Shown here: positions 8,183-31,727 of the stretch, one piece after another
How the letters are laid out: every line of letters begins with the position of its first letter
Numbering within the stretch: position 1 is the stretch's first letter
NCBI GenBank assembly: GCA_903925955.1
Contig: CAIYHO010000185.1
Span: 1 to 42,069, forward strand
DNA from: an uncultured Chloroflexota bacterium
Lineage (GTDB): Bacteria; Chloroflexota; Limnocylindria; Limnocylindrales; CSP1-4
DNA length: 42,069 nt
Reading direction: 5' to 3'
The notes under the pieces: model-generated
What the model was told of the DNA's origin: nothing
Seen by the model: the letters and a program-made list of their open reading frames with translations, nothing else
Databases searched by the model: none
Position numbers and translations under genes: made by a program

Positions 8183-9927
8183 TCCACGAGCACGACGCGC
8201 TCATCGTCGGCGCCGGCGGCGCTGGCCTGTGGGCCGCTCTGGAGCTTGCAAAGGCCGGTGTTGATGCCGCGGTCCTGACCAAGCTCTATCCCACCCGCTC
8301 CCACACAGGTGCCGCCCAAGGCGGTGTCTGCGCCGCCCTGGGCAACCAGGAGGAGGACCACTGGGAGTGGCACATGTTCGACACCATCAAAGGTGGCGAC
8401 TACCTGGTGGACCAGGATGCGGCCGAAGTGCTCGCCCGCGAAGCCATCGAGACGGTGATTGAGCTTGAGCACATGGGGCTGCCGTTCAACCGGACGCCCG
8501 ATGGGAAGATTGACCAGCGCCGGTTTGGCGGCCACACGCGCAACTACGGCGAGGGCCCCGTCATGCGGGCCTGCTTTGCCGCAGACCGCACGGGCCACAT
8601 GATCCTGCAGACCCTCTACCAGCAGTGCGTCAAGCTTGGCGTGAAGTTCTACGACGAGTACCACGTTGTGGACCTCATCACCGAGGGCGGCGAACTGGGC
8701 GACGGCGGCCGCTGCGCGGGCGTTGTGGCCTATCGCATCGCCGATGGCGAGCTGGTCACGCTGCGCTCGAAGGCCGTGATGATGGCCACCGGCGGCTTTG
8801 GCCGCATGTTCCGCGTCACGTCCAATGCGTGGAGCCTCACCGGTGACGGCGTCGCGCTGGCCTATCGCCATGGCGTGCCGGCGCAGGACATGGAGTTCTA
8901 CCAGTTCCATCCCACGGGCATCGTGGGCATCGGGATCCTGCTGTCCGAGGCAGCCCGCGGCGAGGGCGCCTATCTGCTCGACAACGACGGCTTCCGCTTC
9001 ATGGAGCGTTACGCCCCAAAGCTCATGGAGCTGGCGCCGCGCGACATGGTGAGCCGGGCCATCACCCAGGAGATCCGCGCCGGGCGCGGCATCAACGGCA
9101 AGGACTACGTCTACCTGGACGTCCGCCACCTGGGCCGCAAGAAGATTGACGAGAAGCTCCCGGACATCACGGACTTTGTCCGGGTGTACCAGGGTCTTGA
9201 GCCCTATACAGACCCCATTCCGATCCAGCCCACGGCGCACTACGCGATGGGCGGCATCCCCACCAACCTGCTTGCGCAGGTGACCCGGGACGCGTCCAAC
9301 ACCGTGGTGCCGGGGCTGTACGCCGCAGGCGAGACGGCCTGCGTGTCCGTGCACGGCGCCAACCGCCTGGGTACCAACTCGCTTGTGGACCTGCTGGTGT
9401 TTGGCCGTCGCGCCGGCCGCCAGATGGCCCGCGACGTGAAGGGCGTGGGCATGCCCAACGTGGCAGACGATGTCACCGAGCCCATCCGCGCTGAGCTTGA
9501 CGCCATCCGGGGCCGGGTCAAGGGCGAGCGCAAGGAGGCCATCCGCACCGAGCTTGCCGACGTGATGATGGACGACGCCGGGGTCTACCGCGATGCGGTG
9601 GGCCTTGAGCGTGCCCGCGCCAAGGTGGCCGAGCTGCGCGAGCGCTACAAGAACGTCAGCGTGGACGACAAGGGCACCGTCTTCAACACGGACCTCCTGG
9701 AGGCCCGCGAGGTGGGGTACTTGCTGGACACCGCCCAGACGATGGTGGCAGCGGCCATCAACCGCAAGGAGAGCCGCGGGGCGCACAGCCGCGAGGACTT
9801 TCCGGACCGGGATGACGTCAACTTCCTCACGCACTCTCTCGCGACCCAGGCCGCGGACGGCGGGGTGGACCTGGCCTACAAGCCTGTGACCATCACCAAG
9901 TTCCAGCCCAAGCCGCGCATCTACTAG
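8179..9927 (+). CDS. sdhA: Succinate dehydrogenase flavoprotein subunit
   Basis: A 582-residue protein of standard size. The FAD-binding glycine motif is GAGGAGLW at residues 11-18. The covalent flavin-attachment histidine is His42 in RSHTGAAQGG. Further signatures are FHPTGIVGIGILLSEAARGEG (active-site loop), PIQPTAHYAMGGI and HGANRLGTNSL. It oxidises succinate to fumarate on the inner face of the membrane and passes electrons to SdhB. It is translationally coupled to sdhD. Confidence 0.97.
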   Translation: MIHEHDALIVGAGGAGLWAALELAKAGVDAAVLTKLYPTRSHTGAAQGGVCAALGNQEEDHWEWHMFDTIKGGDYLVDQDAAEVLAREAIETVIELEHMGLPFNRTPDGKIDQRRFGGHTRNYGEGPVMRACFAADRTGHMILQTLYQQCVKLGVKFYDEYHVVDLITEGGELGDGGRCAGVVAYRIADGELVTLRSKAVMMATGGFGRMFRVTSNAWSLTGDGVALAYRHGVPAQDMEFYQFHPTGIVGIGILLSEAARGEGAYLLDNDGFRFMERYAPKLMELAPRDMVSRAITQEIRAGRGINGKDYVYLDVRHLGRKKIDEKLPDITDFVRVYQGLEPYTDPIPIQPTAHYAMGGIPTNLLAQVTRDASNTVVPGLYAAGETACVSVHGANRLGTNSLVDLLVFGRRAGRQMARDVKGVGMPNVADDVTEPIRAELDAIRGRVKGERKEAIRTELADVMMDDAGVYRDAVGLERARAKVAELRERYKNVSVDDKGTVFNTDLLEAREVGYLLDTAQTMVAAAINRKESRGAHSREDFPDRDDVNFLTHSLATQAADGGVDLAYKPVTITKFQPKPRIY

Positions 9928-9943: not shown

Positions 9944-10645
9944 ATGCAGATTGAACTGCGCGTCCTCCGGTACGACCCGGAGCGCGACCAGCAGCCCCAC
10001 GAGGCCACGTACACAGTTGAGGCCAACCCGATGGATCGGGTCCTCGACCTCCTGCACAAGGTCAAGTACGAGCAGGACGGCACCCTGACATTCCGGCGCT
10101 CCTGTGCGCACGGCGTGTGCGGGTCTGACGCCATGCTGATCAACGGCCGCAACCGCCTTGCCTGCAAGATCCGCGTGGACCAGCTCAAGGGCAAGCGGAT
10201 CACCGTGGCGCCGCTGCCGGGGCTGCCGGTGATGAAGGACCTCGTGGTGGACATGGAGGGCTTCTTCGCGAAGTTCCGCAGCGTCCACCCGTACCTCCAG
10301 CCGTCGGGCCCCGTGCCGGAGCGCGAGCGCCTGCAGTCGGCCAAGGACCGGGCCAAGTTTGACGACACCACCAAGTGCATCCTGTGTGCGGCATGCACCA
10401 CGTCGTGCCCGTCGTTCTGGGCGCAGCCGTTCTACGTGGGGCCTGCGGCCATCGTGAATGCCCACCGGTTCATCTTTGACTCGCGTGATGACGCAGCCGA
10501 AGAGCGTCTGGAGATCCTGGCTGACCGCGACGGCGTGTGGCGCTGCCGCACGGTGTTCAACTGCGTGGAGGCTTGCCCGCGTGAGATCCACATCACCCAG
10601 GCGATCCTCGAGGTCTCCCGGGCAATCGTGGAGCGTCACGCCTGA
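9944..10645 (+). CDS. sdhB: Succinate dehydrogenase iron-sulfur subunit
   Basis: A 233-residue protein. [2Fe-2S] ligands are Cys54, Cys59, Asp62 and Cys74; Asp in the third position also occurs in E. coli SdhB. The C-terminal ferredoxin-like region has Cys145, Cys148, Cys151 and Cys155, then Cys201, Cys207 and Cys211, for the [4Fe-4S] and [3Fe-4S] clusters. A GGAGG ribosome-binding site precedes the ATG, 16 bases after sdhA. The stop overlaps a CTG that appears to start the RNase H gene. Confidence 0.96.
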   Translation: MQIELRVLRYDPERDQQPHEATYTVEANPMDRVLDLLHKVKYEQDGTLTFRRSCAHGVCGSDAMLINGRNRLACKIRVDQLKGKRITVAPLPGLPVMKDLVVDMEGFFAKFRSVHPYLQPSGPVPERERLQSAKDRAKFDDTTKCILCAACTTSCPSFWAQPFYVGPAAIVNAHRFIFDSRDDAAEERLEILADRDGVWRCRTVFNCVEACPREIHITQAILEVSRAIVERHA

Positions 10646-11145
10646 GCGACGCGGCGCTCCCGGTCATCCCGCACCTCATCATCCGCACAGACGGCGCTGC
10701 CCGGGGCAATCCCGGGCCGGCGTCGTTGGGTGCTGCCCTCTATGACGCAACACGCCCTGACGCCCGCGATCCGCTTGCGGCGCCGGACGCCACCATCTCG
10801 GAGGCGCTGGGCCACCAGACCAACAACGTGGCCGAGTACACAGGCGTCGTGCGGGCGCTGGACTTGGCGCTCCGGCTTGGAGCCGAGCAGGTGGACATGC
10901 TTCTGGACTCGAAGCTGATCGTGGAGCAGCTCCACGGGCGCTGGCGGGTGAAGGATGCGAAACTTGCCGTGCTCCACGGGGAGGCCAAGGTTCAGCTTGC
11001 ACAGATGCGGCGCTGGTCCGCGGCCCACGTCCCGCGAGCCCAGAACTCCACCGCGGACCGGTTGGCCAACGAGGCGCTCGACCGGGTTGCCGCAGGTGGT
11101 CCAGCCCGTGTCGCCCGTGCCCGGCGGATCTTGCCCGGCGCCTAA
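10642..11145 (+). CDS. rnhA: Ribonuclease HI family protein, probable CTG start
   Basis: A 167-residue protein that degrades RNA in RNA-DNA hybrids. Numbering from the CTG, all four acidic catalytic residues are visible: Asp17 in RTDGAARGNPGP, Glu65 in NNVAEY, Asp89 in LLDSKLI and Asp139 in NSTADRLAN. The first conventional start in this frame (TTG at 10726) lies after Asp17, and there is no ATG, GTG or TTG between the upstream stop at 10582 and the motif. The only plausible start is CTG at 10642, overlapping the sdhB stop as CTGA, like the ATGA couplings elsewhere in this genome. Family call is firm; the start is inference. It belongs to the short bacterial/archaeal RNase HI group. Confidence 0.88.
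   Translation: MSDAALPVIPHLIIRTDGAARGNPGPASLGAALYDATRPDARDPLAAPDATISEALGHQTNNVAEYTGVVRALDLALRLGAEQVDMLLDSKLIVEQLHGRWRVKDAKLAVLHGEAKVQLAQMRRWSAAHVPRAQNSTADRLANEALDRVAAGGPARVARARRILPGA

Positions 11146-31650: not shown

Positions 31651-31727
<77 letters not shown>

Follow-up and report, generated by a model that had tools for sequence, protein, structure and literature searches.

Genes at the sdhB/RNase HI junction

In the window, that is, the whole stretch of 42,069 nucleotides that was analysed, the gene for the succinate dehydrogenase iron-sulfur subunit (sdhB) ends within the proposed beginning of a gene for an RNase HI-like protein (Table 1). The downstream protein is assigned to this class by profiles, matching PF13456 (61.4 bits against a cut-off of 21.6; E 1e-16) as well as PF00075 (40.5 bits against a cut-off of 25.8; E 3.8e-10), and its residues 12-152 match PDB 3hst, the RNase HI domain of Rv2228c and its best solved relative by sequence, with an E value of 2.2e-32. 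Active-site roles in RNase HI are filled by four acidic residues (D, E, D, D), all of which are present where the blocks TDG, AEY, LDSK and ADRLAN of the window protein align to 3hst; cleavage of RNA-DNA hybrids is the predicted activity. Compared with Rv2228c, the 167-residue window protein has no second domain and carries an N-terminal extension behind the CTG. No NCBIfam RNase HI equivalog reached its cut-off (the best, NF005567, scored 143.5 bits with 326 needed), so that the protein has no named equivalog, and a plasmid search returned seven records, all below 60% identity.

Table 1. Features at the junction of sdhB and the RNase HI-like gene, in window coordinates.
Feature	Position	Strand	Remarks and evidence
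sdhB, succinate dehydrogenase iron-sulfur subunit, 233 aa	9944..10645	+	Stop TGA 10643-10645; open reading frame; NF004616 and TIGR00384 above cut-offs; PF13085
GGAG, possible Shine-Dalgarno core within sdhB	10630..10633	+	8 bases 5' of CTG; sequence
CTG, proposed RNase HI start codon	10642..10644	+	Shares CTGA with sdhB stop; conservation; ATG/GTG/TTG at same site in outgroup
RNase HI-like gene, 167 aa counted from CTG	10642..11145	+	Stop TAA 11143-11145; PF13456, PF00075, PDB 3hst
First catalytic Asp codon (TDGAARGNPG)	10690..10692	+	Aligned to Asp of 3hst
TTG, first ATG/GTG/TTG of RNase HI frame, too late for complete enzyme	10726..10728	+	List of open reading frames

The RNase HI frame opens after a TGA at 10582-10584, and from there to the first catalytic Asp codon it contains no ATG, GTG or TTG. 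The first such codon, the TTG of Table 1, falls inside the RNase HI domain, and the open reading frame called automatically from it (139 residues) lacks strand 1 and the Asp. The original prediction had placed the Asp upstream of every standard start in the frame and had noted that CTG overlaps the sdhB TGA as CTGA, and both statements hold: CTGA at 10642-10645 is a four-base stop-start overlap of the NTGA type, with CTG in the start position in place of ATG, GTG or TTG. Its further remark that ATGA and GTGA couplings occur at many other junctions of the window was roughly right, "many" amounting to three and four, respectively, among the eight four-base overlaps found with a simple gene caller; the eighth is a CTGA with an ATG one codon on, and the sdhB-rnh pair itself was missed by the caller. 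The predicted RNA fold of 10590-10720 was no better than those of shuffled sequences (z -0.45). Elsewhere in the window, at 31651-31724, a tRNA gene was matched by RF00005.

Junctions in the family and its relatives

RNase HI was detected in 91 of the 107 genomes of the window's family (f1), from which we assembled a set of 89 junctions from 87 genomes, all with sdhB upstream. Not part of this set were G109 (Asp outside the alignment), G113 (a fragment), G128 (no sdhB on a short contig) and G121, which was analysed apart, and eleven named loci (L047-L057) were not counted since the junction of each is identical to a counted one; that of L057, labelled Candidatus Limnocylindrales, is identical to that of G073. 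G011 and G103 contribute two loci each; both assemblies are comparatively contaminated (6% and 8%). One G103 copy may be foreign, because it is 80% like the window and lies in such an assembly; genus g20 has CTGA by the other copy too.

At 73 of the 89 loci, RNase HI lies in the -1 frame relative to sdhB and is open across the sdhB stop, the overlap being CTGA at 64, GTAG at four, ATAG at two, CTAG at two and TTGA at one; ATGA and GTGA are absent from these 73. CTG thus occupies the start position at 64 of the 65 in-frame, TGA-stopped loci, spread over 21 genera, a conservation that the original prediction had missed. From CTG to the Asp there is no ATG, GTG or TTG at 33 of the 64 CTGA loci (16 genera), and eight of these, the window included, lack one over the full length of open frame that precedes the Asp. 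The remaining 31 have such a codon downstream of CTG, and a shorter product is therefore possible there. The distance from the sdhB stop to the Asp ranges from 23 to 305 bases over the 64 loci, and a GGAG-type core of at least four bases lies at -16 to -4 in 33 of the 64. A sequencing error behind the missing start was rejected as unlikely, because the near relatives G007 and G008 (93% identity) share the arrangement.

Among the 16 f1 loci outside the open -1 frame, 14 have an ATG, GTG or TTG downstream of the sdhB stop; in a fifteenth, G105, the stop is overlapped by a GTG that lies four bases upstream. The last (G093, locus L043) has an in-frame TAG that cuts the -1 frame, and no normal start follows; this TAG, which sits within the otherwise conserved WDSLWD-VGAG block of RNase HI, may reflect damage, error or a restart. 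With G093 left out, a normal start is lacking at 33 of 64 CTGA loci and at none of 15 controls (Fisher p = 1e-4, only a guide because the loci are related).

The sister family f4 served as outgroup, with all 21 genomes that had a match included. A normal start lies no more than 40 codons from the Asp in all 21 loci; in nine of them it occupies the same overlap site: ATG in G057 and G164, GTG in G168, G158 and G172, and TTG in G171, G169, G163 and G170. The three in-frame CTGA loci of f4 are followed by an ATG; in G161 and G059 the sdhB matches are poor (30% and 29%) and the junction base is doubtful. The original prediction had proposed comparing this codon in relatives, and besides the nine f4 loci a standard start at the site was also found within f1, where G112 has TTG and G114 CTG, both before [TP]LFP[GE]LE. 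In G014 a GTG lies one codon further from the peptide EEPPLWEG, which in G094 is preceded by CTG. Nine of ten f2 loci examined have a normal start, the exception being G043, and at the three f3/f5 loci examined (L144-L146) no sdhB match was found.

Some junctions are at odds with a CTG start. Part of genus g13 has TAG as the sdhB stop, and the overlapping triplet is GTA (four loci) or ATA (two, plus one in G121). Between stop and Asp, four of these genomes (G129, G126, G120 and G117) lack a normal start and are therefore not explained by initiation at CTG, and G043 of f2 likewise has ATAA without a normal start; at the two CTA loci (G122 of g13 and G106 of g33) a TTG or GTG is near. By locus, GTA or ATA overlaps a TAG or TAA stop, with RNase HI in the -1 frame, at L042, L103, L111, L112, L113, L115 and L170 (g13) and L150 (f2), and five of these eight lack an ATG, GTG or TTG between stop and Asp. 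ATA and GTA are possible start codons at the g13 and f2 overlaps; to judge by a title cited in PMC2268962, initiation at GUA is known from a recJ mutant that IF3 changes relieve. A broader and rather doubtful idea is that the stop overlap, and not which triplet stands there, sets where translation restarts, so that CTG would serve over TGA, ATA and GTA would serve where TAG or TAA has replaced it, and re-initiation in this order would tolerate NTG or NTA codons that fresh initiation refuses.

Conservation of the overlap and a coding signature behind it

A FastTree phylogeny of the SdhB tail and RNase HI shows a single change at the base preceding TGA among the 65 in-frame NTGA loci. Among the 64 CTGA loci, 21 changes fall on the first two positions of the last sdhB codon; the third position of each of the 15 codons ahead of it changed between 5 and 19 times. 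The last codon is GGC at 25 of the 64, GCC at 18, GTC at nine, TCC and AGC at four each, ATC at two, and CCC and ACC at one each. Replacing C by G would be silent for sdhB at 58 of these loci (those with GGC, GCC, GTC, TCC, CCC or ACC) and would yield GTGA, with GTG as a better start. Given the conservation of the C throughout the family, the arrangement of CTG and TGA is beyond chance, and on balance we favour selection that keeps the CTG start weak. The CTG could also be the start with its weakness unselected, the C being kept by drift or stop-codon context. This is possible, if unlikely: C precedes TGA in 92 of 184 open reading frames in 400 kb of G015 and at nine of 12 out-of-frame, TGA-stopped f1 loci, and relatedness lowers the number of independent cases, but these figures contrast with a C at 64 of 65 loci, with the single change there against 21 in the same codon, and with a C at only seven of 20 TGA-stopped f4 loci at the same base (six of 18 without G161 and G059). 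Enrichment of C gave p = 0.01 against the out-of-frame loci and p = 1e-9 against f4, values that are only guides because related loci are not independent.

The same data bear on the possibility that ribosomes slip into the -1 frame as they approach the sdhB stop, which would produce a SdhB-RNase HI fusion with CTG as an internal Leu codon. The prevalence of the -1 frame (73 of 89 loci) would suit such an event, as would the TAG cases of g13, and a requirement for Leu would keep C or T at the conserved base. Against it, eight different codons occur in the last position of sdhB, RNase HI is read in a different frame and from a start of its own at 15 f1 loci, and f4 has ATG, GTG or TTG at the site in nine of 21; moreover, in a search for classical heptamers, an X XXY YYZ motif in the sdhB frame occurred within the last 60 or so bases at one of 73 loci (G122, with a TTG start nearby). 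We therefore hold a frameshift to be very unlikely.

In genus g2, a translation signature stands directly behind the CTG. We took the 17 of 20 g2 loci in which the first ATG, GTG or TTG is at least 15 codons on, or absent, and the peptide is in register, and counted variable alignment columns by RNase HI codon position. The counts were 14/2/3 in the 60 bases before CTG, where variation follows the sdhB codons, and 6/7/12 in codons 2-15 directly after it. A W[DE]SLW peptide is conserved in g2 at codons 9-13 after CTG (for example in L016, L038 and L141) and is possibly a short binding motif; in some other genera, LWEG, LFP, LDFGF or LTLGL peptides occur at the site of the extension. For g1 and g20 the counts from CTG to the Asp were 5/5/9 (10 loci) and 5/3/8 (the eight loci without a normal start), and those before CTG, 9/3/7 and 9/3/6, were less clean. 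Genera g5 and g15 (two loci each; 3/4/4 and 4/3/4) showed no clear period and g19 (four loci; 2/1/3) a weak one, so that the signal is clean only in g2.

These counts also touch on two other placements of the start. An ATG, GTG or TTG in the -1 frame inside sdhB exists upstream at 25 of the 33 CTGA loci that lack a downstream start, often at -69, -99 or -105 and, in 20 of the 25, between 63 and 105 bases before. A start there is extremely improbable: no such codon exists at the other eight loci, which excludes it for the window by sequence, and the 14/2/3 pattern before CTG in g2 is that of sdhB codons. Alternatively, translation might begin downstream at another non-standard codon, such as an ATC before the Asp (10666, 10678 or 10681). 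ATC belongs to the bacterial starts of translation table 11, and LIIRTDG is where the match of the domain to 3hst sets in; nevertheless, the conserved g2 peptide lies further upstream, the C of CTG is conserved, and the eight g1/g20 loci show a third-position excess between CTG and Asp (5/3/8), although that stretch includes the codons after the ATCs. We consider such a start highly improbable.

Proposed re-initiation at the overlap, other junctions and known systems

The CTG at 10642 is thus very probably the genuine start of RNase HI, as the original prediction had proposed, a conclusion drawn from comparison of the sequence with those of its relatives. In the mechanism that we envisage, ribosomes or 30S subunits that end at the sdhB TGA would start anew at the CTG within the CTGA overlap, placing fMet there as the first residue of RNase HI, and the GGAG inside sdhB, where present, would help. 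CTG being a poor start, only a small share of them would do so, and RNase HI, dependent in this way on sdhB translation, would be produced in a low and constant proportion to SdhB. We infer that the purpose of the weak, coupled start is most likely to set RNase HI low relative to SdhB. RNase HII was found in 20 of 21 genomes, so a low level of RNase HI may be bearable.

The initiation machinery appears ordinary. The standard pattern of the initiator tRNA anticodon arm was exact in 26 of 31 genomes, including that of the window (G000), in which ARAGORN called a tRNA-Met at the position of the arm, and IF3 was found in 29 of the 31, again including G000. A changed initiator tRNA and a missing IF3 were rejected on these grounds, and nothing in the machinery therefore marks a relaxed choice of start.

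A survey of 400 kb of G015 with the simple caller (277 open reading frames) gave 82 junctions of the same phase: 28 ATGA, 25 GTGA, 17 CTGA, 2 TTGA and 10 TAG. Twelve of the 17 CTGA junctions have a normal start within six codons, and three of the other five have one at the expected beginning of the protein (by eye, we take these to be GroEL-like, hydantoinase-like and aminotransferase-like), which leaves RNase HI and a CoA-binding gene. The idea that CTG starts are heavily used throughout was rejected, only these two of 82 junctions remaining; coupling by CTG may extend beyond RNase HI, yet it is a rare event.

The CoA-binding protein, named by eye, was followed in 30 loci from 100 matching genomes, the copy in the window's genome not among them. 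Six of the 30 have no normal start in the interval from codon -65 to codon -20 of the anchor. Five of the six (L191, L192, L196, L200 and L214) have an in-frame CTGA over the stop of an upstream open reading frame of at least 371 codons, and in the sixth, L217, which lies at a contig edge, an in-frame CTGA occurs at -36. A further six loci have both an in-frame CTGA and a normal start, and others have an in-frame ATGA (four) or GTGA (four) at the end of an open reading frame of at least 100 codons, some of which may be shadow frames. A coding-potential screen for other late starts listed 35 cases, by eye mostly shadow open reading frames, with one weak UbiA-like candidate. This open reading frame, UbiA-like by eye, lies in L178 near 9708-9760 (G015 contig C1, about 149708), where FRLVHPYPSLLNG precedes the first ATG, GTG or TTG; CTG TTT CGA is a possible start there, away from any stop overlap.

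CTG starts had been called rare in bacteria by the original prediction, and PMC11497404 puts CUG at 0.024% of bacterial starts and at 0.86% of AUG output. Among related genomes, according to PMC5622118, a start is only very rarely switched to CUG (2 of 61,358 AUG starts). The four-base overlap is described as a standard geometry of termination-reinitiation (Huber et al. 2019, PMC6728339), and the RNase HI junction shares with the ATGA overlaps of that work both the geometry and a downstream gene in the -1 frame; the difference is the CTG. ATGA and TGATG are named in that paper, whose main text contains neither "CTG" nor "GTGA". Neither a conserved CTG start of RNase HI nor a CTGA coupling in Chloroflexota was among the literature matches listed, in a coverage that mostly excludes subscription journals.

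If correct, our reading would describe a CTG start that bacteria of 21 genus-level groups have conserved despite an easy and mostly silent change to GTG, and would offer a natural test bed for codon choice by re-initiating ribosomes and for weak starts as expression set-points. Gene finders limited to ATG, GTG and TTG would shorten RNase HI or misplace its start; in the window they would be left with the TTG at 10726, beyond the Asp.

The AUU of infC in E. coli is a conserved non-AUG start thought to hold expression low. Conserved non-AUG starts of chloroplast genes are thought to keep expression low as well (PMC9845219), and at the RNase HI junction, as in both of these cases, a weak start has been kept in evolution. 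Unlike them, the codon here is fixed in a stop overlap, and the gene that it would start is that of RNase HI behind sdhB.
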